Positions 15,831 through 59,485 of a DNA stretch of 64,000 nucleotides are shown here, piece by piece (the stretch's first letter is position 1; the number at the start of each line of letters is the position of its first letter). Under the pieces are notes generated by a model. It worked only from the letters and a program-made list of their open reading frames with translations, was not told the DNA's origin and ran no database searches. Position numbers and translations under genes: made by a program. This stretch comes from Polytrichum commune (lineage: Eukaryota; Streptophyta; Polytrichopsida; Polytrichales; Polytrichaceae): contig OX485808.1 in assembly GCA_950295325.1 (NCBI GenBank), positions 43,606,527-43,670,526 of the forward strand, in the 5' to 3' direction.

Positions 15831-17276
15831 CAAATGCAGGGCTCAGAGGGGCCGACGGGGAAGGGGGGGGGAGGGGAGATATTTTCTCCCGCGGTTACCA
15901 GTCCCTCGCATCTAAAGCTTCCCACCACGCTCTTGGGACGTCACCCATTTAGCGGCATCTCGGAGCGCCACGTCGTACTTCCCCCTATAACCGTCCTTGC
16001 CTGAGGCCTACATCCGCGCCCCCCCGTTTCTGTGGCTCGCAGATTGTTTGCGCTGCATCGACGCTTCTTCGCTCTCATCTTTTTGTCACAGATATTGTGT
16101 GCGCTCGACGGCTGCTGTTAGGTTTGGTGCCTTGTGGAGTTTGGAGCTAGCTTTTCCGATTGCAACGAGCGCTCTCCCGCCGAAAACAACGCCGGGTGGA
16201 GCGAACGGCAGCTTTCTCTGAGAGGATTTGCGTTTGGGAAGCAGAGGAAAGGCAGGCTGCAAAGGACGTAGCAGGCGCGGAAAGGGGTTTCAGGTTGAGG
16301 AAGCCGGTCTCAGAGCAGAGCAGAGCAGAGCAGAGGAGAGGAGTTGCTTACAGCTGTGACAAAGATTTTTTTTGATTCTTGGAGATTTTTGTTTGGAGCT
16401 GAGTGGAGTGGAGGTCGGGGTACCGAACGAGAGTGTGTGGTTGAGTGAGTTGAGTGTATGGAGCTGGAGCTCTTGGAATGACGAGATAACGCTTGTGGAC
16501 CTAGGGTGGTTTGCGTGCTTGCTGGCAGTGCGTGTGACCAAAGAGTCTCTGTTTTCGGCTGTGCCTCTTTATTTATGGTACGGTGATTTCAGGAAGCGAC
16601 GTGTGTGTTGCCAAACATCGGATCTACACCTTTTAAGAAGACGGATGTTGTGAGCAAGTGAAAACTGCTGGGGCACAGGTGACACCACCTTATCATCATC
16701 CTCTTCTGTTATTGTCTTTGTCCTTGTTGTCGTCGTACTGTTAACTTTGGAGAGTTGGACTTCGAACTACAGGCTGGTGTATGTTGTGTTGTGCATTTTC
16801 GGAATTAGTGGAAGGCAGAGAGAGGGCTTATCGATGTCCGAGTTTGAAGAAAGATCTCCGCCTCCTTCTTTGCAAGTGGAAGTGTTGAAATTGACCTGCG
16901 CATATTCGATCCTGATAATATCTCGTGGTCCTCTCTGACGTTTAAGAGCAATGAGTAACTAGGACGTACACCTTCGTGCGCATACTTAGTTGAATGTTAG
17001 AACAAGTTGATGATGCGCACTTGCTGATGCAATTTTCGTTTACTTTGCCGGATTACTCTCAACAGCTTTTATCAACCGAGATTGTGCAATCCTCCCGACA
17101 CGAAAGAATCTTAGCGAATGTCTTGCGAACTGCGACGGAGACCCCCTGGAGTTCCGAGGTATCGACTAAGCGTGGGGCAGGGATCTGAAGGATAGCCTTC
17201 CTGCGAGAAACATACTAGGGGAGGGAGGGAAGGTTGTATCAGGAAACAGGGTGAGGAGGTAGTTTAGAGTGCTCTT
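15831..17276 (+). promoter_or_regulatory. PRR promoter and long 5' leader
   Basis: Base composition shifts abruptly to GC-rich at about 15.83 kb and stays so into exon 1. Candidate elements seen: an evening element on the minus strand (AAAATATCT, 15877-15885), a bZIP/HY5-type GACGTCA (15937-15943), an ACGT core CCACGTCG (15968-15975) and a TATA-like CCCCTATAAC around 15982-15991. If transcription starts just after the last of these, the leader is more than 1.2 kb and contains several upstream ATGs (for example 15997, 16160, 16372 and 16747), unless a leader intron removes them. A purine-rich CAGAG repeat lies at 16311-16345. The transcription start is not determined. Confidence 0.6.
15877..15885 (-). 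promoter_or_regulatory. Evening element (AAAATATCT)
   Basis: The plus strand reads AGATATTTT, the exact reverse complement of the evening element bound by CCA1/LHY/RVE MYB-like clock factors in plants. It sits about 100 bp upstream of a TATA-like box in the promoter of a clock gene, where such a site is expected. One 9-mer can occur by chance; the context makes it credible. Confidence 0.6.
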
Positions 17277-20200
17277 ATGACTGCGGATTTGCGCGAGGGT
17301 GAGGCGGAGTTACGGTCCTCATACCGTCCAACGGCGGCCAGGGGGACAGGGGGCACTGAGCACAATGTAGGAGCAGCTCCTGCTGCCGGAACGGCAGTGG
17401 ACGGAAGGTTGAAGGGCGTGTTACACAGGTCGTTCAAAGAAGTTGATAGAGGTAGGGAACTAGATAAGAACGGGGCTAATACACTGGAGAACAGTCGGCG
17501 ACAGCTCGTCGGGGATAATAATAAGAGCGGAGTAAGTGTGCCGAAGGCTCGAGAAGATGGAAAGGATATAGCGGAGCGGATTAGGAGGGAGCTGGACAGT
17601 CAGTTCCCGCCGGTGGTTAGGGGGTTGCGGACTTCAGACTCTGATGAAGATGGCGGTGGCCGAGAGAAAGACGTCGACGATGACCTAGAGGAAGGTGATG
17701 ATGCTGTTGCAGAGGCTGTCTGTCAAAAGCTCTCACCTTTGTTGAAGAAGGATGAGCAGCGGAGGTCGCAAAATGGTCGTGGAGGGGGTTGGGAGAGTTT
17801 TCTTCTCGAACGCCATTTGCGAGTTCTTCTTGTGGAGGATGATGATTCAACACGGCATGTTGTTGGTGCACTGCTCCGGAATTGCAACTATGAAGGTCGT
17901 TACCTTTGACCGGTCTTAGTTAGATGCAGTCTAGTTTTTGCCATCCACATCCGTGCTGTTGTGTTGGGTCATGTAATGGGTTTATGCTTTGCGTGAGTTA
18001 GCTGTTAGCAAACATTTTTTTTGTGTATCTTTTGGAGTTATGGGCTTCCTTCTACTGTTATTCCCATTGAGCACTCATAGCCTTTATACCTTATGACCCG
18101 GACCTTGAGCATCGGAGCAGATTGCTGCCGATCGTTGGTAGTCTGGCGTAGTGACCAAAAAGTTGGTCACCCTCCATACTGTCAACCATCTGCAGTTCTT
18201 GTTGTTTTCTGAGTCAACTGATGATTTACTGCTTGCAGTGGTCGTGGTCCATCAGTGAAAGTCGCATTATTTAGCAGGAACCTTTGTTCGTCTAGTAAGC
18301 TTGAAGTAAGCTCTGGCTGCTACTTAAGTTTTGCTGACATTGGGATTGCGCAAGTTTCCCCGCCCTTTGGGCATTCCTGGCTTTGAAAGAGAACTTCGCT
18401 GAAACTTTCAGACCATTTGCACTGTCTGCACTCTTGCTGGAGAAGATACTTGAAACGTCAAAACCAGATGAGATGTCCAGTACTCTGAGCTGGTTCATAA
18501 TCTTATGTGTTTAGAAAGCTATGTATGTGCTCTACCTGGAATCTAGACCTGAACTTGAAGGTTTGTGCCTGTCCCAGTCACCTCGGTTGCGAATGGTGCA
18601 ATAGCATGGGAGCTCCTGGAAGATGCAAATAGCTCCTTCGACCTGGTCTTGACGGATGTGGTGATGCCATGCCTCTCGGGTGTTGGTCTGCTCTCGAAGA
18701 TGATGACTCGCGAGCTGCGGAAGAGAATTCCAGTTGTCAGTAAGTTGCTTATCTTGGTGCCTATGAATGCTATCTGTATTCTCATTCACAATACTCAGGA
18801 GTTTCTAAGAGATGTAGAATTTGTTCACAGCTGTTGATACATGTTGGAGGACTAAAGATTGAATGATTGATTAAACAATTTCCTTTTTCCTTGCAGTCAT
18901 GTCTTCATATGACAGCCTGGATATTGTATTCCGCTGCTTGTCAAAAGGAGCTGCTGACTACCTCGTGAAGCCTGTGCGGAAGAACGAGCTGAAGAACTTG
19001 TGGCAACATGTGTGGAGGAAGTGTCACAGCGTAAGTCCTCAATTTGATCCTGTGATACTTTATTCGATGTAATTCTAAGAGTCTGCGCCCGGCACCTTTG
19101 GGAAAATATATGGATGGGAGGAGCATCTTTACCATGACATATTTTTAGTATGCCATGTTGGTGATTTGCTACTCAGTTGCATAATAACTGTTTGGAGTCA
19201 CACTTTGGATTCATTTAGGAGTGTCAATGTTTTTGCTGGTAGTAATGGAGGATATGGTGACGTTTCTGATGGTGCTAGTTCTTGGACCTCTTGCAGTCAA
19301 GTGGAAGCAGAAGTGGTAGTGGGAGTCGAACTGGGGAAGTCCTAAAGCCCAAGAGCTGCGGGGTTGTTGATATTAACAACGCAAGTGGAAGCACTGATGG
19401 AAGCGGCAGTAGCGATGGCAGTGAGAACGGCAGTAGCCGACTTAATGCCCAAGGTGGAAGTGATAATGGCAGTGGCAACCAAGTAAGTTGAATCGAGACT
19501 CATAAAGATGTCATGTCTAATGTATTGTGTTAGTCCAGACTGATTTGCTTCTCAACATTTTAGTAATCGTGGTCATGCTTTCAGCTAATAACTGGACAGC
19601 GGTTGTCTGAGAATATGATATGAATAAAATGGGATTTTCTCATGTAATACATACACAACTATGCATGTTTATGTACATGGAAGGGCTATGCTTGCATGCC
19701 ATACCATGCTTAAGCTTATATATATTACCGACCTTTAGTATGGGCTCACCAGGAGATTATGCCAATCAAGAACAGTAGTGTGGAGTTTCATGGTGACGAA
19801 TCATTCTGACTCTGATGGTTTTTAAAACAGGCTCACATGCAACCTGTGCAACTTCCAAGGAACAACACTGTGCCAGAAACTGCAGATGGGGATGAGGAGG
19901 GACAAGCCACCTCCCAATCAAAGGGTGGAAACTTGGGTATGCATTCATACGAGTGTCTAGTCCTGTTCCTACCTCTCATTAGTATGTTAGTTTAGTGTGA
20001 TCACTCTCCTGGTGCTGCTTAAGCTGTATTTTTGTATGATAAAGGTAATGGTCAGGTAGTGAAGTGCCAAAGGTAATGGTTTCTGCTAGAGCCTAGAACT
20101 GCCTTCTTATAGAGTTAGTTTTCAGGTTGAGGTAATTGAGGTGGTTCTCTGAGTTTGCTGAGTGTTTCCTTCTCCGTATAGGTGGTGCGTGTTTAAACTA

Positions 20201-23200
20201 AATTGTTCTAGAGTAAAAAATTTGGCATGTCGACTCTGTATAAAGAATAGAGTTAATTTCTCAGGCTACGAATTAGGTGTTTTTCTGATTTTGCTATGTT
20301 CCTGGTCTTGAAGTTCTACATGTTTAAAAGGTTATCATTTATTTCCAGTATCGTTTAGAGGAGAGATATGTTTGGAGTCTGCTGACCACCATTTCAGGGT
20401 AAGAACACCATGATGCTTGCAGTCAAGATGTAACATACTCCTTGGATTAGGAGCCTGATACTAGAATAGGTGGTACTTTTGATCCTGTATTCCCAATTTT
20501 AGAATCTACACATCCCCTTTGACACCCTTTAGGATCTAGACTAGTGTGTTACTTGTTGGAATGGGAGGAGCTGGATGCGTGCTGCTGTTGCTGTTGGATA
20601 CTTCTTACGACTTACTGGAAGATTTTTGTTTGCTGGTCCAAGGGTCTCAAGCTGTAGTCTGGTTGTCAGTTCTTTGAAGGCATAGTTTAGGATGCTGGAC
20701 GTCTTGATTTTAGTGTTTGGTGACATCAAGAGTGGGGATGGCTAAAAAATAAGTCTGGCTCTTGCCTCCTTGTGTTGCTTAAAAACGTCCTCCATCAAGT
20801 ACATGACTGAATATTCACCGACTAACATCAATCTTTCATCTTGTGATTCGGCTATTGAGAATCACTGGATGCATCATTCATATAATGCATGCCTGCAAAC
20901 GAGTATGAGATTTGTTTTGTTTTTAGGAGGTGTGGTTTTCATCTCAAACCTTATTCATGTTGTGTATGCCTGGTATGCTTCACTCTTTCCAATTTTAGAA
21001 TCAGAGTAATGAAAAGGTAGTGGATCAACTTCATCTTTTCCTTCCTTTCTCTTTTATTTTTGAATGAATCATATTTGATTTTAGTATGTTGTAGATCTAG
21101 CATGTTATGAATCTGATAGGCATCCTCCTAGGATTTCTGAGATTGCAGGTCAATGTATGTGATGTCTGTAGTAAGTGATTTATTGAGTGTGTTGTGATTT
21201 GTTTGGTGTAGAATCAGTGTGAAGGTTTTAGAAGTTTTGGTATTGAGATTAAGGTGCAGCTTAATTGGTGATGTCTCTGATGGTATTTGAACTTGGAAGG
21301 ATTGAGATTATGAGGTTTTCCTTTTCTTGTAATGTGTTGTTGTCCTGTATGATGCTCATGATTAGAATAGGTTAATGGTAAGGTTAGGATATTAAGCTTG
21401 AAGCTGGTAACCTTTGCACTTCTGGCTGTTTATTTTGTCAGCCATGCACTCCTTCACAAGCTGGTGAATTGTGTCCAGTGTGGGAGTGCATATGTTAATT
21501 CAATAGCACTTATACAGTAAACTTGTTTCCTTCAGTGCACATAGTAGAGACTAGAGTGTCAATTCCCACTTAATTAGATCTTCTCTATTACAGATGAAGA
21601 AATGGGGCATGATCTGGAGATGGCTACACGCCGGCCTGCCAGTCATGAAATGGAGAAAGCACAGCAAGCTGAACATGACTGCCAACTGGCTGAAGATGAT
21701 GTTGCGTGTGCCATGCAAGAGGATGGGCCTACACCAAGCAGTGACAATGGGGATGGACCATCAGCTTCAGGTGGGAATGCACCTAATGAGGAGTCCTCCG
21801 AGAAAGCGATTGACTTGATAAATGGCATTGCAAGTCAGCCACAAACACTGGGAGCAGTACAAGATGAAGGTAGTGAGGACGGTGATGATATACTTGATCA
21901 GAGGGGTAAGAGGACCCCTGATCGTGAGAATTTAGGGCCAGATTCTGGTCCTACACTTGAGCTGTCACTGAAACGGCCACGGTCAGCAGTTGATACCACT
22001 GGGGATTTTGAAGAGCGTCAGCCACTTCGTCACTCTGGGGGCTCTGCATTCTCCAGGTACTTCCTTGAAAATTGGTCACTTTATTTTTTTGGTCCTGAAC
22101 TCATCTTTCCTGTGTCCTAACAACATTTTCATTATGATCGTGCTCTTGCTCAAGTAGAAGTATAACTACACTAAATATGATATTTAGTGTCACTTGCTAT
22201 TTGGATTTACACAATGCTCTATATTTTCATTATTGATGTAATTTTTTACAAAGTAAACTTGTTGATGTTCTATAATGTCCAAACAACCAATCTAACATTT
22301 GTTGGTAAAATATGAGATATACAATAAATATGTAGCATTGTGTAATTTCAAATAGTAAGTGACACTAAATATCATATTTAATATAGTAACCATTGATCTA
22401 CTATCATACAATTGTGTCTCTGCTCACGGAATCTCCTTTCTACCTGCAGGTATAGTACTGGAGGAACAGTTATTCAACAAGTCCATGTTGGGGGGTCATT
22501 GCCCATTAGTGGCTATCCAATGGCTGGTGGATATGGACCTTACAGTCTCACTCCTGGGGGTTGTACTAGTTCTGGAGGGCCCCTTCGTCTTGGTGTGGGA
22601 CATGACCGGAGCGGCTCATCAAAAGGAAGTGCGGAGGGTTCAACTCCTCCTCCTTCCCATATTCAAAATTTTGAAACCCAGGATGGTCAGGATAATGGCT
22701 TGTCTACAGGCCAAGATGGGTACTCCGGTTCTCGGACCACCAAGGATGAGAGCATGATAGTACCTGGTATGCCTGTGGCCATTCCTATCCCACCACCTGG
22801 CATAATTGCATATGATGGAGTTTCTGGAGCATATGCTCCTGCAATGTATCCAGCGTACTATGCCCATCCTGGTGCATGGATTGCAGCTCCTGCTCAACAT
22901 ATGGCCGAGCATAATGAGGTCTACAGTCAGTCTGCTGCTTTCCAAGAACAGAACTCTGTTTCTGGACATCTATCTCAGGGAGGACATCAGCACCAGGGAG
23001 GACATCAGCACCAGAGGTCTCATCACCACCAAGGGAACCAATACCATCACCACCATCATCACCATCCGAATGCAACCAAGACCCCTGGGACTTTGGCCAT
23101 GCAAGAGGAACAACAACAGACGGTCACAAATGCTGGCTCAGGAGCACCATGCTGTGCATCAGGCAACATGGGGACAACAGGATTGGATGGTCCCAGTGGA

Positions 23201-23766
23201 AGCAGCAATGGGTATGGAAGTAATGGGAATGGTAATGGCTCCATGAATGGTAGTGCCTCAGGAAGTAATAACGGGCACACAAATGGTCAAAGTGGTGTTG
23301 GAGTGACACCCACTGCAAATGACAATAGCGGCAATAATGGAGGTAGTGGGGTCGACCAGACCATGGATGGCATGAGTGCAGGAAATGGCATGTGTTCTGA
23401 ACAAATGCGCTTTGCCAGAAGAGAAGCTGCCTTAAACAAGTTCAGGCAGAAGAGAAAAGAGCGATGCTTTGAGAAGAAGGTACATTATCTTTCTAATATC
23501 CCTCTCCTGGAAGTTTTTACTTTTCCTTTTTGGTCTGTTTCGTTTACCATTGTATGTAGTATTTGAAATGAGATCCAAAATATGGCAGGATTCAAAAACC
23601 TTTTTGCACATCTATACTTGAGGTCGTTAATTAAATGAGGCTTGTTGTTCTGTCCTCACAGGTGCGATATCAAAGCAGGAAGAGACTAGCTGAACAAAGA
23701 CCTCGGGTACGTGGTCAATTTGTACGGCAAGCAGTTTATGACCCAGCTGCTGGTGATGCAGAATAG
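17277..23766 (+). CDS. PRR: Pseudo-response regulator (circadian clock), PRR5/7/9-like
   Basis: Eight exons: 17277-17895, 18578-18739, 18897-19030, 19297-19482, 19831-19936, 21594-22056, 22450-23479, 23662-23766; 934 aa. An in-frame TAG 12 nt upstream supports the start. A receiver domain (about residues 181-300) carries the acidic pair after LLVE, Asp233 in LVLTDVVMP and Lys285 in LVKP. An EAR-type repression motif LELSL (524-528) is followed by a PRR-type [12 protein letters not shown] block, then a His-rich run, Asn/Ser/Gly-rich sequence and a C-terminal CCT domain (about 878-921, split by the last intron). Such proteins bind DNA through CCT in the nucleus and repress morning clock genes with TOPLESS-type corepressors. 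The repression motif favours the PRR5/7/9 side over TOC1. Oddity: angiosperm PRRs have Glu where this has Asp233, so it may still accept phosphate. Intron 6 is mostly a MITE. Confidence 0.95.
19937..21593. other. Long PRR intron 5
   Basis: This 1657-bp intron separates the exon ending GGNL from the exon starting [10 protein letters not shown]. It is T-rich in the sense direction with a normal TTACAG acceptor and holds no recognised gene or element. Short frames within it have no family similarity. Confidence 0.75.
22161..22390. mobile_element. MITE inside PRR intron 6
   Basis: Inverted ends of about 57 bp, beginning around ACTACACTAAATATGATATT on the left and, reverse-complemented, ACTATATTAAATATGATATT on the right, run through TTTAGTGTCACTT to ACACAATGCT with few mismatches. 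The 230-bp element fills most of the 393-bp intron (22057-22449), so the ancestral intron was about 160 bp. The terminal ACACTAAATATGATATTTAG block recurs near 24630, 26520, 50580 and 52690, marking a family spread through the window. Confidence 0.85.
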
Positions 23767-31990: not shown

Positions 31991-32286
31991 TAGACTAAAT
32001 AATCAATGAAAGTAGAGTGAATGATGAACATGGAGTAGGAGCAACAAAAGTCATCCACCTACTTGAATCAGTGTTCAGTCATAACCAATCAACTCATGAA
32101 CATAGTATGGATGATATTGTATATCCATGGATGAGAAACATGACGAGTTCCGATAAATAACACTTGCGCATCTCGGATGAGCGATCGGTTTAAGGAAACC
32201 CACCCTAAAAGCACCCCTACAAAAACCCTTGCACTCACTTCTTGATCTCTCACGCCTTTAGGACCCATGGAAGTTTTATTGAAGCT

Positions 32287-32452
32287 GCCCGTGCCCGTGC
32301 CCGTGCCCGGCCATGGTGGCGGAGGGAGGGAACGAACTTCTTCACCTCGGTGCATCTCTCGCAGCTCGTCATTGGCTATGGCGCTCCTGTAACCCTAGCT
32401 CTCTCTCTCTCTTCTCTCTCTTCTCTCTTCTCTCTCTCGCTCTCTGCTCGTC
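32287..32452 (+). promoter_or_regulatory. Repeat-rich, CU-rich 5' leader of the PTB gene
   Basis: Four GTGCCC/CCGTGC-type hexamer units lie at about 32287-32310, followed at 32396-32452 by a nearly pure CT tract with interspersed TTCTCTCTC units. In RNA this is a dense CU-rich tract, the class of sequence that polypyrimidine-tract-binding proteins recognise. Its place about 90 nt before the chosen start codon of a PTB gene suggests, but does not show, self-regulation. Confidence 0.55.
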
Positions 32453-32540
32453 GCGTCTTCTCCTTCCCTTCCCCTCCGCTCCACCTTCCGCTCGCTTCGC
32501 TTCGCCTCGCCTGCGCATCGCTCGCCGGCCTGGAGTCACG

Positions 32541-35500
32541 ATGTCGTCTGCAGCCGGACAGCCGCAGTTCCGCTACACGCAGCCGCCGTCCAAGGTGCTC
32601 CATGTGCGCAACCTTCCGTGGGAGTGCAGCGAGGAGGAGCTCATCGAGCTCTGCAAACCGTTCGGCAAGGTGGTCAACACCAAGGTCAATGTCGGGGCTA
32701 ACCAGAACCAGGCGTTCGTGGAATTCGTAAGTGCCTAGGGTTTCCTTTTGTTACCCTCCGCATATCATCATCATGAGCATCATGTCTTAGGGTTTCGTTC
32801 CGGACGTCATGTCGCTGAAGCGTCTGGTCTCCTGTTTTGAATTATAGTGGAACGTGTTGCCGTGTTTCGATGTGCTGGCAGCTAATGAAATGTGAAAAGT
32901 CAATGTCGGGGCCAACTAGAATTAGGCGTTCGTGAAATTAGTATGTCTCTAGGTTTTTCTTGCTTGCTTCTTCATGCTCTCGTTTCAGATGCCGTGTAAG
33001 AGGCTTTAATGCTGTGAAATTTTTCCCCGGGATGGCAGGCTCAGAAAACTTAATTTTACTGAGTTTAGGGATGGAGATATAACTTAGGGTTTGGGTGGGG
33101 GCGAGGTTGCGGTTTCATTGCTACACAACTATTTATTGCATTGGTTTTGGCGTGGTGGTTTTGCATGTTGTGATATTAGAGTTTATAACCTCCAAGTTGC
33201 AGTTAGGTAGTTGTGTTTTCAAGTGTTAATCGGCTGTTGAATATATCTGGATGTGATCTGATCTGCGTGCATTGTCGATAGACGCGTTCTTACAGTGAGA
33301 GACTCATCATATTGTGCCTCGGAAGTCTCAATGCATTTTGTGGTGATCAGTTACCTGCGTTTCTATTATTGGTCATTATACTTTGGTGGAAGAGCATTTT
33401 TTCTATCGCGTAGTACAAGAGCATGGTGTGGACTGTGACAGCACCCTCGTGCTCATGTTGTTGCAGGCTGATTTGAATCAAGCGATTGCTATGGTGTCTT
33501 ATTATGCATCGTCATCGGAGCCAGCTCAAGTTCGAGGGAAAACTGTGTACCTGCAATACTCTAACAGGCAAGAAATCGTCACCAGTAAAAACTCTGGGGA
33601 TGTTGCAAGCAATGTCCTGCTCGTAACTATTGAGGGCGTAGAGGCTGGCGATGTCAGCATTGACGTCTTGCACCTGGTAAGTCTATCTATCTCAAATAGA
33701 GGTATAGGTTTATCATAGGGAGTTCTGTGATAAAGGGAAGCAGTTGGTCAATGGGTCTGTTGTGTTGCAAAGTGATTAAATGCTTCCACGCGATAGCTTT
33801 TAACCGAGAGGAGTCAGAAGAGGGCCGGTAAGACATGGATCAGTTACGGTTTCACATAGATTGTTTCTCACATTTCAGCGTTATTTTATGGGGTTTTGGT
33901 GGACACAAGGATTGAGTTTGACTTAAGACTACATGGATCAGCAGGTCCATGTGACGGACACATCGTCGATGGCAGCCTGGTGCATGGGAGAAAGCGCATG
34001 TGTGTTTGTTTTCCCTTCCCTTGCCTAACCCTGCCTCTCTACCCTACTCCTCTTAACCTTTATCCCCTGGCAACTTGAGATTGATGTGGATTCATCTCAT
34101 TTATGTTCCCTCTCACTCTCCTCAAAGGCCCTCAATCCTCTAGCCCCTCAACCCACTCATGAGAACTGACTATCTTAAAAGCTGAATGGCTAAGTTCGCC
34201 TTGTGGTGTATGAAGACCTCTTCAGTTTTACTTCCTGTAGTTTCACTTGCAGCTGTATAGTATTTGGGATGAAAGCATTTTATGATGATCTCCTTACATC
34301 AAATTCTGGACAACTTAACGTGTGCTACTCTCCAGTCTTCACACCAGATGTCGGTCTACTAGTGAAATTAATTACTGTCAGGGTGTTCACCCGACAGATG
34401 CAAAGCTATTGAGAGGAATTTTTCTTAACATTCATTTTTGCTGCCAGGGTCTGTAAAGAAATGAAGTCTGAAATCTGGGCTTTTGTTGTTGTGTGGTGGT
34501 GAATAGTGTGCGATGTGTTATAGTGGTGCACCACAATGTTAGTGGTAGAGGTTTCCTTGTTGAGAGTGTGCAGAAGACATGAGATTATATTTTGTTTCTT
34601 CATGATGGACACCATGGTGCCTTTAGGTTGATGCTTGGGTCTATTTGTCATCTGCTATATTCTTGCACAGGGACTGTTATTGTGGAATAGAGTATCTCAC
34701 ATATGTGGGGCATTTGCATGTAGTACTTATGTATGGTCAATATGCATTTGCAGGTATTTTCTGCCTTTGGTTTTGTGCATAAGATAGCGACATTTGAAAA
34801 AAGCGCTGGCTTCCAGGTGTGTATTATGGTGAGAGTCACTTGGCTTTCACCGATGTTATTGGCTTTATTCTTGACTTTTATCCCGTGGTGTGGTGCTGGT
34901 ATTGCTCTCAACCTTATGTCCTGTGCATTTTTGTAAAGATAGCTTAGTTGTCTTGTCTTTGTCCCTATCATTGTTTAGTCCACGAGTATCTTGTATCTGA
35001 TCAATAGTATTTTGGGCACAGGCGCTCGTCCAGTTTAGCGATGCAACCACTGCTAATGCAGCCAAATCAGCACTTGAAGGACGGAGTATTCCTAGGTATT
35101 TTCTGCTTGGGCAGGAGGTTCTTGGCTTTGAGTACTAGATTTTGAAGACTACGAATAGTTTTCTTCTTAGGAACCCAAATTTGATTAAATGTTTACTACA
35201 TATGCATATTGGGCAAAGTTATTTTGTAAGAAGCAGTTAATGATAACTCTTTTTGTAAACTGTAGATACCTATTACCCGACCATGTGGGTCCCTGCCACC
35301 TGAGGATATCGTTTTCTGCCCACAATGATCTGAATGTGAAGTTTCAGAGTCACCGAAGCAGGTATTTGGTTGTTGCTGTGAGAGGGAGTTGCTATTACTT
35401 TTTCTACTATTTCGTGAATGTCAATCATGCTTGTGTTCAGGAATGAGTCTCTGCAATTCAATAAAAATCTGTTCATGTTGAAGTTAATCGATATATATCA

Positions 35501-38080
35501 AAAGAAATTGGGCTTCTCGAGCTTATAGATCTTGTGTTCTCTCGTCACAGGGATTACACCAACCCTTACCTCCCAGTTGCCCCATCAGCCATAGATGGTG
35601 GAGGGCAGGTCAGCACATATCCCCTTTTGACTTATCTGTACTGTGGGGGTTTTAAGGCCATTTTTTCTGTTATGTTCAGAATTTCTTTTTGGTTCTCTCC
35701 TCATTTAGTTATGCTGTGAAAGTGTTGTCTGATGGTCAGGGTCTAATTTCTTGATGTTTGTATGGGAACAGTTTGGTATCGGACCTGATGGAAAGAGAAG
35801 AGAACCGGAGAGTAATGTGTTGCTGGTGTCAATTGAGAATATGCAGTACGCTGTGACCATCGATGTCTTACACACTGTATGTGTTTCCGAACTTGATCTT
35901 GTAATGTAAATCAATGCGGTAGGGTTTGTCTTGTGATCAATTCCCCTATTATCTGGATTTCGTGATGATACATCTGAGAAAAACAGTTCGGAAACATTCA
36001 ATTGCTTCTGTGCTGAGATGAAGAGAGGGATTGTATAATGCAGGTCTTTTCAGCTTTTGGAACCGTTCAAAAAATTGCAATATTTGAGAAGAGTGCAGGT
36101 TTTCAAGCCTTGGTGCAGTATCCAGGTTTTGTGCCAATGCTCTCTTCCTTCAAGTTTTTGAACATATTATAGTATATTCTTGATTATTCAGATGAGTGAT
36201 GAACTGCAACATATGAGGCACTTGAGACAACTGCTTCCAAGACCATCTAAATATTACAGTAGTATGATGTTCTTTTACAATTGAAAACATGATTCTGTCC
36301 ATTTGGCTGACCTTTCTTTTGGCTTCTGGGGATGTTAAAGAGAACTTGAGAAACTTGGCAGTATCTCCTAACCTGTTCCTATCATAACTCGTTTGTAACT
36401 CTCTGTCAGATTGCACTACAACCTTGTACTGGCGGTTATGTTTGCCAATTGTAGGTTCAATCTGTGGATTGTTGGTTTTCAGGAGTGCTTAAGATCATTT
36501 TGTGAAGAGATGCTTAATATAAATGTATTTGGAATATCATAATGATTATCTTCTGTATGTCAAACCCATAGGATGTATTTCTGAATCATCTGGGTTCTGG
36601 ATTTTACAGATGTACAGACAGCAGTGGGAGCAAAGGATGCATTGGAAGGACACTGCATATATGATGGCGGCTACTGCAAACTTCATCTATCTTACTCTCG
36701 GCATACTGACCTAAATGTAAAGGTATTGTGCCCCTTGGTATAGGTTTGTATGCTAGCCCATGCATGAGTGACTTCTTCATGTGGACTTAACTGAAACAGA
36801 AGAGTCTGCAGACTGGCACAACCATGTCAATAGCAAGAGGCCTTCACCGATTCAAGATCATCCACATGGTGAAGTCATTCATGCAGGAAGTCAATAGTTA
36901 GTGGATGATTCTTTATATCTGTAACAGTACTGCCTCTGTGTATCTCAATGCAGTGCACAGAGTCATTAAACATGCAGGAAGTGTTTGGAAATCATTCGTC
37001 CACCAACTATTGACTTCTAGTAGCAACATGCACTGGGCTAGCATGTCTAGCTTAGTGTGTATGGCATTAGTAGCGTGTGTCTATATTCTTAGGAAGCATT
37101 TTGACTCACGGGCTGGTCCAAGCACACAATAGAGATGCACATTCTATGAATCGAAGTGCTGTCCTGGCCGGGATTCCCAGGGCATGGGTATCTTCTGTGG
37201 AGCACCTGATTCACTCTGGGTACTTGTGCTGTTTATGCTTTGCTTGTAGTGTGCTACACTGAAATCCACAGTGGTCTACATAGTAGGGAAAAGATGAAGG
37301 TTCAGATGAACTGTAACTGTAAACTCGAGCGGGAGATGGTAGAGTACACAAAGATTGAAGAGCAGGATCGTAAGCAGGAGCATCTCTATCCAAGTTTTGT
37401 AGGCCAGTTTGTCATGCTGTACCATCTCACACAATCTACAATGCAGCAAGTTACAGCGCCTTTTTGACGGTACATCTGGGCATGTGCAGGTGAACAACGA
37501 CAGGAGTAGGGATTACACCAACCCTGGGCTGCCACCAACACAGCCCCCTGTCCTCGGCCAAGCCCCAGGAGTAGGCCCTGAAGCACTGCAAGCCTCCCCG
37601 ACTGCTGGTCCTACCTACCCTGGGCCCCAGTACGGTGCTGGACCACCTCCACAGGACTCTGGTGCCCAGCAACAAATGTGGGAGTATGAGCAAAACTCAA
37701 AAGCTCAACAGGGTTCAGGTCCCATGGCTGGACAGCCTATGCCTGGGCAGCAACCCATGTACATGAGCCATCCACAACATGGTGGAGTGCCTGGAGGCCC
37801 CTCTGGTCACCATGGCCCGCCTGGTGCACCACCAAGTCACTACCAGGGCCCTCCTGGTCCGCCCACTTCTATGGGACCCATGTCAGGGCCACCAGCTATG
37901 GGAGGACAAATGGGCCCTCCAGGCCACATGGGCCCTGGTGGCATGCTACCTCAAGGTGGCCAGAACCGGCATTTGGGGCCACCCCCGCCTCCTGGCCATT
38001 CGATGCCGCCGTACCAGCACATGCATGGACCAGGACCTCAGGGTATGCCTCCTTCAAATGGAGGTGGCTACTACATGTGA
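32541..38080 (+). CDS. PTBP3: Polypyrimidine tract-binding protein homolog (PTB3-like)
   Basis: Ten exons: 32541-32726, 33467-33676, 34754-34816, 35022-35095, 35266-35361, 35551-35608, 35772-35876, 36044-36125, 36610-36722, 37490-38080; 525 aa, phases closing exactly. Three RNA-recognition motifs are visible: RRM1 with VLHVRNLPW and QAFVEF, RRM2 with VLLVTIEG and GFQALVQF, RRM3 with VLLVSIENM and ALVQY followed by the HTDLNVK block. The order and wording match Arabidopsis PTB3, a regulator of splicing and RNA fate acting in nucleus and cytoplasm. The last exon adds a 196-residue Pro/Gly/Gln/Met-rich tail, clearly longer than I recall for PTB3 (about 430 aa in total). The chosen ATG begins MSSAAGQPQFRYTQ as in relatives; an in-frame ATG at 32313 would add 76 Ser/Leu/Arg-rich residues across the CU tract and is less likely. 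Confidence 0.96.
32899..32960 (+). pseudogene. Decayed duplicate of PTB exon 1 end
   Basis: Within intron 1, AGTCAATGTCGGGGCCAACT followed by AGAATTAGGCGTTCGTGAAATTAGTATGTCTCTAGG without gaps closely repeats the last part of exon 1 and its donor site (32684-32745). The copy has two in-frame stops and a weakened splice site, so it is a local partial duplication, not a usable exon. Confidence 0.85.
36749..37045. repeat. Nested inverted repeats in PTB intron 9
   Basis: TATGCTAGCCCATGCATG (36749-36766) pairs with CATGCACTGGGCTAGCATG (37027-37045). GGAAGTCAATAGTTAGTGGA (near 36886) pairs with a TCCACCAACTATTGACTTC block (near 36999). GTGACTTCTTCATGTGGA (near 36768) pairs with TCCACATGGTGAAGTCATTC (near 36870). 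The pairs are nested, so the intron RNA could fold into a branched structure. Confidence 0.7.
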
Positions 38081-39544: not shown

Positions 39545-39990
39545 GTTTTTTGGATGACTGGTCAAGTCCATAGTTGGGTCAACCGATCTGGTTATATGTA
39601 GTGTTTTGATTAGTCGGTTTGGTTGGTCGATTTGAATAGTAGGGTTCCTGTTTCGTTGTTGGACAAGACCGGATATGACATGATGGATAGGATGGGGATA
39701 ACCTTGCTTGTAACCAGGTCTTCGGACCTCCACATAAATTGGTAAGAATACGAATAATTTTCTTAGCAACCCAAGACCTAGCAAAACCATTAAAGGCACC
39801 TGGCCAAGAGATGTTGGGAGCTTTGATGTGCCCCTAAGCACCTACCCCATTGAATCTTGCCATGATCTAGAATCTTCAGAGCAAAGAATTTGGAAGACTT
39901 CCGGCTGTTACTCAATACAAGAGTTATGTCGATTCCCCTCTTTCCAACTCAACCAGGGACGAACTTATCGCAACCAAAATCCACACTTAG

Positions 39991-40366
39991 TTCAAAGGGG
40001 GTTCAAATGGGGTTCAAAGGTGGCCACCAAATGGGACTCAAATGGATTCACGATGCTAGTAATTTCGCACAACCAAGACCACGCACAAGTTAGTCCCATT
40101 TTCTTGAAGAAGCCTAAGTGTGGAACACATGGCATACGCCCTTGCTATGAGATACCCTGGACCTCAGTGTGAATATGGTTCAAAGGGGGTTCAAATGGGG
40201 TTCAAAGGTGGCCACCAGATGGGACTCAAATGGATTCACGATGCTAGTAATTTTGCACAACCAAGACCACGCACAAGTTAGTTCCATTTTCTTGAAGAAG
40301 CCTAAGTGTGGAACGCATGGCATACGCCCTTGCTATGAGATACCCTGGACCTCAGTGCGAATATGG
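39991..40366 (+). repeat. Tandem duplication, 2 x 188 bp
   Basis: Units 39991-40178 and 40179-40366 each start TTCAAAGGGGGTTCAAATGG and end with CTCAGTG(T/C)GAATATGG-type sequence; only a few substitutions separate them. Each unit also contains a short GGTTCAAAG direct repeat at its start. Conceptual translations are open but match no family I know. Confidence 0.92.
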
Positions 40367-41200
40367 TTTCAAGTTGGGAGTCACCCTGACTTGCAATCCT
40401 AGGAACATGCCTCAAACTTCCTACAAACTAGTATGGCACTCACTAGGCTTGACACTATCAATCAAGAATTTGGAACATGTCCTTATTGACGTAGGTAACT
40501 AAGGAGCCCAAATGGTTCCATCAAGACTAGCCATACTAGTATGGTGACACCACCCCGTGACATCACTACCGTTCCCAACTCACATAAGCTTCTAGTCCTA
40601 TGTGCATGGCTTCCACCTCACATCAAAGAGTGGAATGTCCAACCCAATGTGACGCCAACAACTAATTTTGGAGCCAACGCTCCTGCAAACTTTGACAGGC
40701 TTTGTAGGCCATGTTTTTTTTTGGGTCTAATTGGGACATTCTTTATACCATTGAAAAGCCCTTGGGAATAGATGTCTAGTGCTCTAGTAGGTAATCTTCT
40801 TAATAATGTTAACTGTCTAAGAATTCCTCCATGTTACTGACCTCAAATGATACACCAAATGTCCCCCCCCCCCAAAAAAATTAGAAAGTTCCCATGGAGT
40901 GCCCATTTCCACCTCTAAGAATGTAATCATGTAAGTTCTTCACACGGCCTATTGTGCCAATAGGCGGCATACTTGTTCCATTTGATAGTAAGGCCGGATG
41001 CATGTGAGCGTCAATCACCCTCACCCTTTAATTGCGTCCTAGTCCGGGTGAGGGATCATGAGCTACATGCCATTATGAAAGTCACAAGTGCAACAAGGAA
41101 AATATTGGGAGAAGTGGTGTGTATAACACCTTTTTCTTTTTATCTTTTATTTAAACCACTCAAGCATTCACAAATACTCTTACAACCCGTGTAAGTTCGG
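40367..41200. other. Gene-free stretch
   Basis: No gene recognised. A C-run followed by an A-run (CCCCCCCCCC then AAAAAAA) lies near 40862-40880. Confidence 0.45.
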
Positions 41201-47424: not shown

Positions 47425-49107
47425 TGTTATGGGCCCATGCCTACATTGTATTCTTTTTGCAAGTTACAATGCATCCAAGGTCTAGTCACAGAGGATAATA
47501 TAAAAAACTATTTAAAGCATTTATGTGATCATTCTGCTTTTTTCTCCTTTTCCTCGTTTTACTCTCAAACTTCCTTCGTGTCCAATCAAATTCTTTTAGA
47601 ATTTTCTTAGATACTTGCCTGTATTTTTCCCTTCTTCCAAAATGGATGAAGAGATTGTTGAGAGACATCCTCACACACGTCCTATGCCAATACATGAAGA
47701 GGAGTTTCTTGACGGGTGTATCCGTAGTTGGACCCCGCCTCCTGTTACGCAACCTTGCAGACATGATCTAGGAAATCTTACAAATGTTGAGAAGATTTCA
47801 GGTGAAATTTTTTCAGTTTGGAAACTTCAAATGTGCATCCTACTACATGCTCAAAAGATGCTAGGCATAGTAGATGGATCAACAATGAGAGAGTCTTTTG
47901 CAGATGAAGAGGATTGGCTTGACAAAGATGCTACATGTTATACTTTCTTGATTTCTACTATAGACAACAAACTTATGCATAGACTCATGAATTGGCGCAC
48001 TGTTAACCAAATGTGGCACCGCTTTTGCACAATACACAAACATATTGCCACAAAGAATGTTCAAATTCTGCAGCAACAATTTTTTGACATGTGGATGAAG
48101 CCATATGCTACAGTGGTCAATTGCATTAGTTGCATTGAGCAGCTTGCGCATTAGTCAAACAACATGGGTGAGACCATATCGGACCAAGCTGAATCCGTAA
48201 GATCCAAAGCACGCTACCATTGTATTTCTAGCATTTGCATTCCGCATGGGACATTGTCCCACGCAATGAACAAACCATTGAGTCACTGACAATGCGATTA
48301 CTCAAAATCTAGCCCATGAGTTCATGGAAAACAAAGAAGATAAAGTTTTTTTCTCTAGCCGTAGCCAAGGATCAACTTCTAGTTGGAGACTTCTTTCAGT
48401 ACAAGAAAAGCGAAAGCATGCTGCCAAAATCACAAAGTTGAAGAAAACCAAATGTTACAGGTGAAAAAAACAAGGACACTAGGAGCGCAAATGCCCAGAA
48501 AACAAGAAGAACAATGACATTGACAAGTCTAGTGAGAAAGCAAACAGAAAGCAAGTTGAAACCAGGAGGAATGAAACCCATGCAGTCATCACCAAGGACT
48601 TTGACGAGGGCGACAATTAAACTTTCATGGTCCATGTGGACGAGCATTCTGATCATGATGCGTGGTATATGGATGGAGGAGCCACCGATCACGTGATCGA
48701 TTGATTGGAGTGGTTTGCCTCTTTCAAGCATGTACCTCACGGATGCTAGCCCGTCATGATTGCAGACATTTGGCGCCTTTGGGTCTGATGAGTGGAACGC
48801 ATCCAGATCCAATGCCAACTTGATGGACTGTGGAAACCATGTAACATCCACCGTGTACTTTACGTCCCTGAAGTATGGAAGAATCCCTTCTTGGTGGGAC
48901 AAAAAATTGACTGAGGCTTCATCATAACCTATACACAATGAACGTGTTTTCTCACCAACAATGAAGGACAAGGCAAGGTTGTCCTAATGGGTACCCGGGC
49001 CGACAAGCTCTATAAATTGGCGTTCATTGTTGATCACCCCACCATTACTGCTCACATAGTCACCACGCATGACCCAAATTTGCAAAGACCTTTAAAATCA
49101 ATCTATG

Positions 49108-53450: not shown

Positions 53451-53806
53451 AGGGCAAGAGGAATTAGCGCTTGCAAAGTTCATCTCAAGCGATTTTGGGG
53501 GAAGATATGGTGACAATAACTCAATATTTGGTTTAATGGGATCATAAATGAAAAATGAGATGTTGGTTGACAATTTCTAATGATATGATGAATGGTGAAT
53601 TGAGATTTTGGATGGTTCGTGAAATTAGGGCTCATGAGTTTTTTTAAGTATACAGGTTGGATTGGGATTGGACAGAACTTTTGTGTTGGAATCTAATCAC
53701 CCCCTAACCACATTAGGTTGTCATATCAATTATATGACCCAAGATGCAATCTTCCATTGGCTATTGGTACTCATTATTCAATGAAATGATGATGCAATTG
53801 ATAGGC

Positions 53807-54086
53807 CATAAAATGATAAACATCAACCGTCATTGATATACCATAAAATGATAAACATCAACCATCATTGATACACCATAAAATGATAAACATCAACCAT
53901 CATTGATACACCATAAAATGATGAACATCAACCATCATTGATACACCATAAAATGATAAACATCAACCATCATTGATACACCATAAAATGATGAACATCA
54001 ACCATCATTGATACACCATAAAATGATGAACATCAACCATCATTGATACACCATAAAATGATAAACATCAACCATCATTGATATAC
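53807..54086 (+). repeat. 35-bp tandem satellite, 8 units
   Basis: Exactly eight 35-bp units starting CATAAAATGATAAACATCAA, the first near-consensus and the last ending TATAC. The main variant position is GATAAAC versus GATGAAC; units 4, 6 and 7 carry the G form, which traces amplification steps. Confidence 0.97.
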
Positions 54087-54668
54087 TATATTGGTTAGAA
54101 ATTATCTGGCTTTATACAAAAATTTTACATATAAATTAGAGCGTAAACAGATAATTTTCGCACCATTTGTTTGTCAAGAAGGGCCTTGATGATAAGTTAG
54201 CTCCACTTCTAAATGTTTTGAAGTCAGTCACAGCCCACCTCACTGCACAGTGCACATCCACTGATTTTGCAGAAACAACATGAATAACACTCTAATTTAC
54301 AACAAAGGTGGTTATAGTATCATATACTATGTCTCTGAGATCTTATTACTTAAACACACATTCTAAGATCTGGGACACTCTTCCTAACCTACCTTATCAA
54401 AATTGTCGGACAAAGCCGATATAATCCATATCATCCAGGCCTGTCCTTGACAGGGAAGGAATTGAAGAGAAAGATGGAACTTAATGGCTTTCAGAACAGG
54501 ATGCAATGGGTTCTACTTGGAACTCGTGTCAGAATAAATGGCATCTGGTTGGTTTCTCACCAGGATTCCAATCAGTAGATTAATAACCACCAAGGGTATC
54601 TATATACAACTTGTCTCTTGTTGTAATTAAGGTCTGTGTTATCTACAGTGATGTAATTTGAAATTTCA

Positions 54669-57600
54669 TCATCCAGACAGGCCGAGTTCCTTCCGAGTCT
54701 TTCCCACAAAAAGGTCCTTGCTTTTCAGCATTCCAGGAAGTCGACCGAGGATTGTTGCAAATGGCACTTGTGCAACAGCTTGTATTCTTCCCAACGACAC
54801 AATTCCGAATGGTGATGCCAAAGGCGTGTACACTGAAAGTTTTGGAGAGGCTGGATCCTTGCACAGCTTCTTAATGTTTTCTACGACCACACCCGCCTGC
54901 TTACCTGCAAGGAACCCTTGCTTGATTTCCTGCAGGTCCAGAAATAATCATCAGTACCACCAAACAAAATGTTACGTTGCTCCCTGCCAAGTGTTGCCCT
55001 GCGGAGTCAATGTGCAAACGGCCTTAAACCATCCGAAAGCGAACTGACACTCACAGGATGCATCAAGACATACCTCTCCACTGCTAGAAATATCAAGAGA
55101 GAACTGTACCTAGGATTACAACTCCTAAGTAATATGCAGGGTTGTTCAAATCATAAGTATTAGCTGTCGCCTATAATATGAATGCCTTATGTTTTCTAAT
55201 TAGAATATATATAATTCTATTATTCCAGTTTTGATATTTTATGGTTATGGCTGAATATATCTCAGCCCGTAAACTAATGCCCGATTATGATAATTCATAT
55301 GATTGATAAATGATCTGTTGTCTGACATAGTTTATCAATCTATTCCCGACAAATAGAAATGAAATTGATATTAGAGCCGGGAAGTCAAAAGGCTAATGCG
55401 ACTAAAAGTGCATCAGGATGGTTCAAACTGGCTAATTCCCTAGAGTGGCGGAGTATGGTAGCCTCCTTGAGATAGAGTTTAATGTCAAATTCTTGATCTG
55501 ATTGGAAGAAAGACTTGAGGCTCCTAATACTACACACTTAAATATTGATGGAAATTTATCTCTATAAATAAGATGTCGTAGGATCGAACGTCTCATGCAG
55601 TATCACAATTTGTTTTCCAAAATGTAATCATAAGGATCTAAGGAACTTTGATTAGTGATGGAAGATTTCAAAAATGAAAGTAAGTATTGCCACCCCGAGA
55701 AACTCTATTCTGTGCGAAAACCCAGAGAGTGAGACTGCACCTTGAAAAGCGCATGCTTGAATCACTGGTACATACCTTAGTATTTGCAATATCTCCTATA
55801 GCAAAGATGTTGCTCTTTCCTTCCACCCGGAGGTTGGCATCAACCTTTAAGCGGCCCTCCCCATCCAGTAGATTTCCCAACTCACAGTTCCTCAACCATG
55901 AAGAGCCCACACGCTTTCCAATACATACAAAATGGGTATCGGCTGTAATGCGAGTGCCATTCTTTGTGACATAGTCAGGTCCAGCCAAGCCATCCAATTC
56001 TACTCTGTCATTATAATGCCCAACGACATTTTTGTTAACAGAATGGTCAAACTCTATATAATAAATGCAAGACAAAAAATGTTCCTCTTATAATTATTTG
56101 TTATCAAAGTCAACCCAAGTGTGATTGACTTCAAGTGCCCAGATGTTACATTATCCCTGTACCTAAACATGAAAGAGATCGTGTCTGTCCATTCGGGGTA
56201 GGCAAAAATTCAATTTTAGGAATGCAGACTTAAACAAATTTGCGTCCAAGTTCTTATTGAGCAAAATGTTATGCATTCAGACTCGTGTTACATTTGTCAA
56301 CATTTTGGAAAAGTTCCTGACAGGTTTTGAGAATCTGTCGTAAAAATTCTAGTGTAAAACTTCAGAATGTAGTGCATGATGTACCTGTCATTCAGAATGA
56401 CCTCCACTTTCTTATCCTGCAACCATTTCAGACTTTTCTCTGACGCTTTGGGCCCAAGGAATTCAATAAGTCGCTTGCCTGAGTGGACCAAAGTGACCTG
56501 CAAAGCCAAATCAAGACTCATCAGTATCCCCAGCTTCGTTATACATGCTTAGAATAAACTTCAATGCCGCATTCTTTTCTTTGTAACTTGTCTTTACCTT
56601 TTTGGTAGGAAAGTCTACAACAATCTCTCCAGCTAGCTCTACACCCACTGGCCCACCGCCAATGATGAGGACCGAATTAGCTGCAACCAGCTTCTTATTC
56701 TCTGCACACCTCACAAATTGCACTATGTGAGTCCTACTCTGTTTTATATGTAGATAGATAGATACAAATGAAACGCTTAAATATCATTGCCAAGAAACAT
56801 ACAAGGCCACTGGGACCCGGAGACCTCTTCTGTATCTCTCAATTGCTGTTAATTGCAACCTATTTACAGCAGCTGAAGGGGCGTTTTCACACAACTACTT
56901 GATTGGTTGTGGTTGTGGTTAGGACCCATCTTCAACCACAACTGCGACTTTTCATTTATACACAAGGTGTACTTATAGTTGAAGAGTGGAATTGACCCCA
57001 ATTACCGACTCTCCTATTGGTGCAGCCCTTGGAGTGGAGACAATCAATTCATGGATTTTTAGTGTATAGTTTATTCAATAGCAATTGCTACCTACAAACC
57101 CTCTCTCATGCTTTGGGCTTGAAGTTTTCTCCCGGTGCCACTGAGTAGCTACAAGCAAAATAGCACCGAAGAAAGTAAACTGCCACCATCAACTACGCCT
57201 TGTGTCATAGTTGTGAACCAAATTCACGAACAACCATTAATTCAGTATTCTTCAAAACAACAGATTTCTTTCCGTTATAAATTCATGTATATCAACCAAC
57301 ACGTTATGTCCACAGGTAGATTAATAAAATTGTTGCTTTGCCCAGCTATCGACTTTCTATTCAGGGTTTTGGTTGTCATCAATGCACCTTATCCCTCTTT
57401 ATTCCATAAAACAATAGAGGCAAGGAAAGTAAATTAGAACCATCAACCACAGTTGTGAAAATTGCCTTGACACAAGGAGGCTTTCAGGGAGTCTACTAGT
57501 CAAAACAACTTGAGCAAATCTTTACATATACCTGCAGAAAATGATTAGATATATATGTCCAAATTCCATCTCCTCAAGCTCGCAAACAATACCAGGGGCA

Positions 57601-59485
57601 GTCAAGACAATAATAGCGAACACAAACATTTCATTAACACAAACACCATTTGTGTCAAAATGCGTTATCGAGTTCGACATAACATACAACGCACTATTTC
57701 ACATTTGATATGGGATAAACATCATGTCAAAAAAAATGTCAAAATAACAACAGGGGCGGTCTAGAGCGACCACTTACCAGCCCGATATTCTGCGAGTCGC
57801 TCTGCTCGCGTGGCTGGTCCGTGGTATGTGGAGCCTGTGCTGATGACAAGGAAATCAAATGGCGCACGGTCCCCTGCTACAGTCACAACCTCCGAGTCTG
57901 ACACACTTTCGGCTGCGCTCTGCACGACTTTTGCTGTCTTCAAATAATCCGAATGCAAAATGAGCGACTGCTCGGCAAACGACGGCTCCACAACACATCT
58001 CAACGCTGAGTACGGAATCTCGTAGTAGTCCTTTCTGTGACCAATACATGTTCACCGCATTAGCACCAAGACAGACGGATAAGAAAAGCGAGCCTAAAGC
58101 GGAAAATTTCATGTCTGCACCCACGTCTTAGAGGATATGAAACAGGCAATTAGTGCGAGATGATTGGCAACTCCAAATCGTGCCCGTGGCCATTTCCCTC
58201 ATCATATTCAGAGCTCATATGAATATCTTATTCATCGTCAAAGTGAAGATTCTCCTTCTCATTGAATAAACATACAGGTCCCTTAGAACCTTAAGCAGGT
58301 CCAAATCAGTGACTTATCGTAAACAGGCACCTGCTCATATGAATATCTTATTCATCGTCAAAGTGAAGATTCTCCTTCTCATTGAATAAACATACAGGTC
58401 CCTTAGAACCTTAAGCAGGTCCAAATCAGTGACTTATCGTAAACAGGCACCTATATTTAACTGGTGTGTGGTTAGGTATAGAACAGACACCAAAAAGACG
58501 TTATGTGTTCAATAGAGATTGGATCTCCATGCTCAATATATGGTAACCATTCAGGGCTCAATAGTCAACGTAATTGAGGGGGACCTAAATGACCATTTAA
58601 TCACAGAGGATCTTCACTTTGAAGAATTATAGGATACTTGTATGAGCTCCAAAAACTATGAGGCAAATGGCTACTGACAGGATATGGAATTGGCAATCAT
58701 CTCATACTACTTGCGTGATTCGCAACCCACAAGAAGTGGATGCAGAGCTTAAAGTGACCGTTTAACATCCGCTGATGTTACCTTACTTTAAATTACCACA
58801 CGACATCACAAGCAAGCAAGAATTAACGCCGTGTTGCCTGTGCACTCATCTAACTACAGCTAGCAAAAATCCAAATAAAATCTGTGACATGCATGGATGT
58901 GAAGATCTCAATGTTCGTAAGCTAAGACGATGCGTACGGGTCAATTAGCGTCACTTTGGCGTCTGACTCGAAGCTCTTGGCAAGGGTAGAGCCTGCCACT
59001 CCTCCGCCGATCACCACAATGCGTTTCTGGTCGATTATAACCTCCTCATCCTTGCTCCTGTACATGAAACCATATTTTCATCCAAGATTTTTTCAGTACG
59101 TTTACCAGATAAACCGAGAACTATAGCTCCAAAACCTCTCCCCTGAGCCGGTTTCACGCACACGATCATCACACCACATCACAACACAACCTCCGACCCC
59201 AAGCGCCCGTCAACAAAATTTCTAACGTCGAAACTCCGATAGAATCACACTAGTATAGCAATACATTCACCAGGGAAAAATTCATGACTGCAATCGCACT
59301 GAAACGCTTCGCATGCGGTCTAAACGTCCAATGTGTCTCCAATTTGTTACAGTTAGTTTTTCTTTTCTTTTCCCCAGGAAGTGTTCTGTCTAAATTTAAT
59401 TTTTCTGGTAGGAGGAGGTTGAGGAGTCTGACCCGAAGAGCAAGGCGAGGAGCTTGGAGGCGAGCTGGGAGAGAAAGTTGATCAT
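54669..59485 (-). CDS. AMID/FSP1-like FAD/NAD(P)H oxidoreductase
   Basis: Seven minus-strand exons: 59485-59433, 59057-58938, 58034-57778, 56701-56598, 56497-56385, 56004-55776, 54929-54669; 378 aa with phases closing exactly. Residues 31-41 form an FAD-binding Rossmann turn (VIGGGVAGS); 154-165 form the NAD(P)H-binding turn (LIIGGGPVGVEL); NIFAIGDIANTKEIKQG (281-297) is the second FAD contact. The remaining text (YYEIPYSALR, GPKASEKS, SKDLFVGKTRK) follows plant proteins named apoptosis-inducing factor homologs, related to animal AIFM2/FSP1, which reduce quinones with NAD(P)H at membranes. The N-terminus MINFLSQLASKLLALLF is short and hydrophobic, a plausible membrane-association segment. An in-frame ATG at 59692 would add 69 residues and is less likely. 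Length is normal and no lesion was found, so the gene looks functional. Confidence 0.93.
55380..55575 (-). mobile_element. L1-like LINE tail inside an intron
   Basis: On the minus strand the sequence translates to ATILRHSRELASLNHPDALL and, further upstream, a DIKLYLKEAT-like block, paralleling the LINE end at 10565-10960. It sits in intron 6 (54930-55775) of the oxidoreductase gene, in the same orientation as the gene. Severely 5'-truncated. Confidence 0.75.
58180..58720 (+). repeat. R1 foldback element in intron 2 of the oxidoreductase gene
   Basis: The most complete R1 copy. The left end around GGCCATTTCCCTCATCATAT and AGAGCTCATATGAATATCTT is mirrored at the right by ATACTTGTATGAGCTCCAAA and AACTATGAGGCAAATGGCTA, giving inverted ends of about 70-90 bp with mismatches. 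It fills most of the 903-bp intron 58035-58937. Confidence 0.75.
58213..58452 (+). repeat. Perfect tandem duplication, 2 x 120 bp
   Basis: 58213-58332 and 58333-58452 are identical as far as I can read, starting GCTCATATGAATATCTTATT and ending AAACAGGCACCT. The duplication lies at the left end of the R1 element. Perfect identity means it is very recent or an assembly artefact. Confidence 0.96.

Follow-up and report, generated by a model that had tools for sequence, protein, structure and literature searches.

A predicted PRR of the moss Polytrichum commune retains the phospho-acceptor aspartate of its receiver domain

The window that we analysed, a 64-kb (64,000-nucleotide) stretch of Polytrichum commune DNA, carries on its plus strand a gene that we predict from its sequence to encode a pseudo-response regulator (PRR). 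The model consists of eight exons in a single open frame, which splice to 2,805 nt including the stop codon and translate into 934 amino acids. The gene and the elements of its product are as follows.

17277..23766, plus strand: predicted PRR coding span, a spliced open frame with GT..AG introns; receiver (REC) and CCT domains by Pfam
17277-17895, 18578-18739, 18897-19030, 19297-19482, plus strand: predicted exons 1-4
19831-19936, 21594-22056, 22450-23479, 23662-23766, plus strand: predicted exons 5-8
18578..18739, plus strand: exon 2, 162 nt, bearing Asp233, set by its splice sites and frame; the introns on either side match those of type-B response regulator (RR) loci in place and phase
17823..18997, plus strand: receiver domain, residues 183-294, exons 1-3 (Pfam PF00072, E 2.4e-22)
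21956..21976, plus strand: repression motif 1, LELSLKR (EAR-like), residues 524-530, fitting L(E/D)(L/I)S(L/I)(R/K)R
22034..22453, plus strand: repression motif 2, SGGSAFSRY, residues 550-558, interrupted by intron 6, fitting SXXSAF(S/T)(R/Q)(Y/F)
23420..23730, plus strand: CCT domain, residues 881-923, interrupted by intron 7 (Pfam PF06203, E 3.4e-17)

All seven introns of the model have GT..AG borders, and the donor of exon 1 reads GTCGTT, an uncommon form. The interval 18578-18739, singled out by the original prediction, is exactly predicted exon 2. It is bounded by phase-1 introns, one lying within the Val codon that follows 'NCNYE' and the other within the Ile codon of 'PVVI'. With 54 codons and phase 1 at both ends, exon 2 could hypothetically be skipped, which would drop the segment around Asp233 and keep the frame. 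Upstream of the start codon, between 16200 and 17276, there are 12 ATGs, several with short open frames (the longest has 64 codons), so the leader, if this region is transcribed, may carry uORFs. The same region holds two minus-strand copies of AAAAATCT, presumably a CCA1-type site, at 16363-16370 and 16383-16390, 20 bases apart. Over the whole window the CCA1-site scan returned 8 matches against a shuffle mean of 5.61, within shuffle expectation, and the evening-element scan returned one against a mean of 1.14.

Both domains scored well above their Pfam cut-offs, Response_reg (PF00072) at 79.7 bits against 30.2 and CCT (PF06203) at 62.6 bits against 28.4. The CCT domain also matched chains of HD1 and CONSTANS in the PDB; CCT domains are described as capable of binding DNA and proteins (PMC9486492). 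The protein thus has the N-terminal receiver-like domain and C-terminal CCT domain that define the PRR family. These two domains were the only ones found in a Pfam scan of all 934 residues at E values up to 0.01, in which no GARP/Myb-like domain appeared, and the receiver followed by such a domain that marks a type-B RR is therefore not seen here. Within the family, the two repression motifs are of the type known from the PRR5/7/9 subgroup, for which the forms given above are described, while PRR3 and TOC1 are listed without either motif in the relevant passage of the same source (PMC6895785). An EAR-type motif and a CCT domain on the receiver protein, as had originally been proposed, are thus borne out.

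By sequence (phmmer), the top two PDB relatives of the receiver come from the Arabidopsis type-B RR ARR1, namely 8xat (E 5.7e-25) and 9h6e (E 7.5e-25), and 53 of 121 aligned residues are identical to 8xat. In ARR1, Asp43-Asp44, Asp89, Ser116 and Lys138 form the site that faces the AHP1 histidine, as described in PMC11903765. We aligned six receivers, namely the P. commune PRR, four type-B RRs from its genome and Arabidopsis ARR1, and read the following positions from the alignment.

17835..17840, plus strand: acidic pair Glu187-Asp188, in the columns of ARR1 Asp43-Asp44
18655..18657, plus strand: Asp233 (GAT), in the phospho-acceptor column by alignment to ARR1
18902..18904, plus strand: Ser263, in the conserved Ser/Thr column, aligned with ARR1 Ser116
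18968..18970, plus strand: Lys285 (AAG), aligned with ARR1 Lys138

The Asp233, Ser263 and Lys285 columns are invariant, with Asp, Ser and Lys, respectively, in all six rows. Asp233 therefore occupies the phospho-acceptor position, as the original prediction held. Its further claim of a full active-site set stands for Asp233, Lys285 and also Ser263, all of which are in register, and needs correcting for the acidic pair: what had been placed 'after LLVE' is Glu187-Asp188, with a third acidic residue, Asp189, next to it. The other rows have Asp at both pair positions wherever they cover them (3/3 in the Glu187 column and 4/4 in the Asp188 column), these columns being partly unfilled because one type-B locus lacks exon 1 (L004) and another part of it (L006). 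Glu in place of Asp at the first acidic position is also seen in the FleR receiver. With the acidic pair, Asp, Ser/Thr and Lys all in register, the predicted domain has the make-up of a phosphorelay receiver, and the loss of the acceptor Asp that strictly defines a pseudo-receiver is not what the ARR1 Asp column shows. An E value of 2.4e-22, together with catalytic columns in register, rules out a chance string. The predicted P. commune protein is, then, a PRR by architecture that is not 'pseudo' at the acceptor residue.

Gene structure lends independent support. The four type-B loci (L004-L007) were so labelled from their translations, in which the receiver is followed by a stretch that we take to be GARP-like. 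The right-hand intron of the Asp exon is at the aligned place and in the same phase in all four of these predicted loci, and the left-hand intron matches in all three that contain exon 1 (L005, L006 and L007); in L004 the acceptor of the left-hand intron is alone visible. The Asp exon is 153 nt long in each type-B locus and 162 nt in the PRR, and the three additional codons agree with the alignment gap. The PRR receiver differs from those of type-B RRs in having three extra residues ahead of beta-4 and MPCLSG where they have MPDMDG. Other receivers of the genome (L029-L032) are split elsewhere, near the junction of 'DVQ' and 'MP'. ARR1 and the type-B RRs are 41-44% identical to the PRR receiver, whereas the full-length receivers L013-L015 share fewer residues with it (27/127, 36/120 and 28/128). 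Matching introns and higher identity together lead us to conclude from these gene models that the PRR and type-B RR receivers share common ancestry, exon by exon.

We searched the genome (407.8 Mb in 64 contigs, seven of which total 406.1 Mb) for further PRRs. The PRR receiver used as query gave 10 matches: its own three exons, four in the type-B loci and three weak ones that proved to be other receivers (L008-L010). A CCT profile search gave 10 matches at nine loci (13 of 13 candidates scored), one of which is the PRR. For the other eight we included between 5.6 and 9.3 kb of upstream sequence each, in which no receiver was found (best E 1.4); five carry B-boxes, one has a CCT domain alone and two presumably are of the ZIM type. 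The PRR receiver begins about 5.6 kb before its own CCT domain, and this upstream reading could therefore miss a gene whose introns are longer. TOC1 was not found among the nine CCT loci in these exon-wise searches. The window's own PRR exons were absent from the 40 matches listed in a PF00072 search of the genome (51 of 67 candidates scored); a search that misses a known PRR cannot show that others are absent. Since the copy-number searches worked exon by exon, the absence of further PRRs is unproven. Nevertheless, with a receiver at just one of nine CCT loci, P. commune looks like a moss with a single PRR and without TOC1. We also read 33 receiver loci (L013-L045), a set biased to good matches, 32 of which cover the 40 PF00072 matches and one of which (L042) came from the PRR-receiver query. 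The acceptor column, judged by eye, is Asp at all 30 loci where it is readable; at the remaining three (L022, L023 and L040) an exon edge cuts the acceptor region.

Potential phosphate donors are present as well. Two HPt-like loci each have an exon encoding VHQFKGSSS followed by a later SIGAQRVKQVCITFRQCC exon. The matches of the PDB-derived HPt peptide were weak (E 0.204 and 0.235) and not significant alone, although the loci also hold the histidine-motif exon; the HPt Pfam model gave no matches in the genome search. The active-site exons of the two loci, L046 (G000:C2 near 6705111) and L047 (G000:C5 near 46710246), are near-identical, and the loci are possibly a duplicate pair.

The original prediction stated that the acceptor Asp is Glu in flowering-plant PRRs. 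It also held that some moss PRRs keep the Asp and guessed that the state may be ancestral to land plants. In the moss Physcomitrella, Satbhai et al. reportedly found in 2011 that the DDK triad is present in PpPRR2, PpPRR3 and PpPRR4 and diverged in PpPRR1, and that the PpPRR2 receiver takes part in phosphotransfer in vitro. P. commune resembles PpPRR2/3/4, as reported, in having a moss PRR with the triad and a CCT domain, and differs from Physcomitrella as a whole in that one PRR was found, which bears the Asp, rather than four of which one has diverged. That flowering plants lack the Asp, the part of the first statement that literature supports, is recorded for Arabidopsis in passages of PMC9486492 and PMC3017809; its PRR5, PRR7 and PRR9 share the receiver, the CCT domain and both repression motifs with the P. 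commune protein (PMC6895785). The guess about an old state agrees with the moss report above and with algae, since Ostreococcus OtPRR and Chlamydomonas CrPRR1/2 are described as having a potential true DDK motif that is missing in higher plants (PMC5508029).

The Physcomitrella family is described as four closely related rhythmic PRRs, with TOC1 not present according to the same passage (PMC3017809). Linde et al. placed these PRRs in the PRR3/7 clade (PMC5638080), and clock-related effects of PpPRR2 in Arabidopsis are cited in PMC3610754. In 2010, Holm et al. described the Ostreococcus protein as unique among the PRRs known at that time in having a functional acceptor Asp (PMC3017809), which conflicts with the later moss report. 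Ostreococcus is described as having just one PRR, so there is an algal precedent for a sole Asp-bearing PRR; the algal hosts, however, are unicellular, and their PRRs, which we liken to ours by description, are said to differ from those of plants (PMC5508029). The hornwort Anthoceros agrestis, of a separate bryophyte lineage, likewise has a single PRR (AaPRR), which belongs to the PRR3/7 clade, and TOC1 was not found there either (PMC5638080). The apparent lack of TOC1 in P. commune agrees with what passages of PMC5638080 and PMC9486492 give for mosses and hornworts, though not for Marchantia. ARR1 shares the acidic pair, Asp89, Ser116 and Lys138 columns with our protein, but its output domain is GARP (PMC11903765), whereas the P. 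commune PRR has a CCT domain and no GARP-type match.

The Asp state has therefore already been published for algae and, reportedly, for Physcomitrella, and P. commune repeats it in another plant; the Asp-bearing PRR is a useful further example of a known state and not a surprise. It is worth following mainly because this land plant appears to have no second copy. In the literature that we consulted, which was not searched in those exact terms and left most subscription papers outside its scope, we found no land plant whose sole PRR is stated to bear the Asp. The four PRRs of Physcomitrella make it hard to settle there whether Asp-bearing PRRs are switched by phosphorelay; with one apparent Asp-bearing PRR and no TOC1 found, the question becomes a single-residue test in P. 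commune, and Ostreococcus offers a similar single-PRR case. If the Polytrichaceae origin of the DNA is right, two moss classes have the Asp state, in support of its being ancestral in mosses.

We suggest that the P. commune PRR is apparently the sole PRR-family clock repressor of this moss and that its ancestral receiver is chemically complete. Histidine phosphotransfer proteins, for which the two HPt-like loci are candidates, would phosphorylate Asp233. Phosphorylation may then alter the contacts of the receiver, through dimerisation or co-repressor access, and the altered contacts would tune the strength of CCT-bound repression at CCA1/LHY-type genes. A single moss repressor whose phosphorylatable receiver tunes repression is on balance the explanation that we favour. 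A complete active site does not by itself imply phosphorylation, and the departures of the receiver from type-B RRs count against this explanation; even so, we consider it quite likely, judging from the residues, that Asp233 is able to take up phosphate in vitro. That this phosphorylation matters for rhythm in the plant is a tentative proposal. More speculative, and in our estimate unlikely, is the idea that the whole PRR arm of the clock depends on a single receiver that can be phosphorylated, with a histidine-kinase/HPt relay acting directly on the sole PRR, and that flowering plants later froze the switch by replacing the Asp. If this were true, light or hormone input would reach the oscillator in one chemical step.

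The main competitor to a phosphorelay reading is that the Asp is an ancestral leftover, harmless or structurally useful, in a receiver whose sole function, as in flowering plants, is to interact with other proteins. PpPRR2 phosphotransfer, as reportedly observed, speaks against this, as does the retention of the remaining catalytic columns along with the Asp. On the other hand, one third-base change turns GAT into a Glu codon, so the Asp would be easy to lose, and flowering-plant PRRs work without it, their pseudo-receiver still being required for dimers (PMC9486492). We regard a leftover Asp as a real possibility that falls short of being probable.

It is improbable that the protein serves chiefly to read out a histidine-kinase phosphorelay driven by cytokinin or light, as a type-B-like regulator whose output domain is CCT, and is not a part of the clock oscillator. 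The sequence and intron positions that its receiver has in common with type-B RRs would fit such a role, as would the HPt-like loci, but the Pfam scan (E up to 0.01) gave no GARP/Myb-like domain, both PRR repression motifs are on the protein, and the transcripts of PpPRR1-4 are described as cycling in Physcomitrella (PMC3017809). Finally, although the gene model is a prediction with an unusual exon 1 donor, a mis-modelled exon-2 region, a decaying pseudogene or an assembly artefact is very hard to credit in a 934-codon open frame with regular borders at every intron and conserved domains at both termini.

Beyond the PRR gene, ARAGORN found no tRNAs in the window, and Pfam returned nothing for an open frame at 37403-38077 that is rich in Pro, Gly and Gln. 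An open frame at 32283-32735 (plus strand) contains an RNA-recognition motif (PF00076, E 8.9e-9) and is, we presume from its resemblance, perhaps polypyrimidine-tract-binding-like. A Copia-type gag fragment lies at 47600-48151 (PF14223, E 4.2e-12), and an open frame on the minus strand at 55671-56087 resembles a pyridine nucleotide-disulphide oxidoreductase (PF07992, E 1.4e-10). The window also has three tandem arrays:

39990-40368: 188-bp unit, 2.0 copies (97%)
53797-54090: 35-bp unit, 8.4 copies (96%)
58213-58452: 120-bp unit, 2.0 copies (100%)
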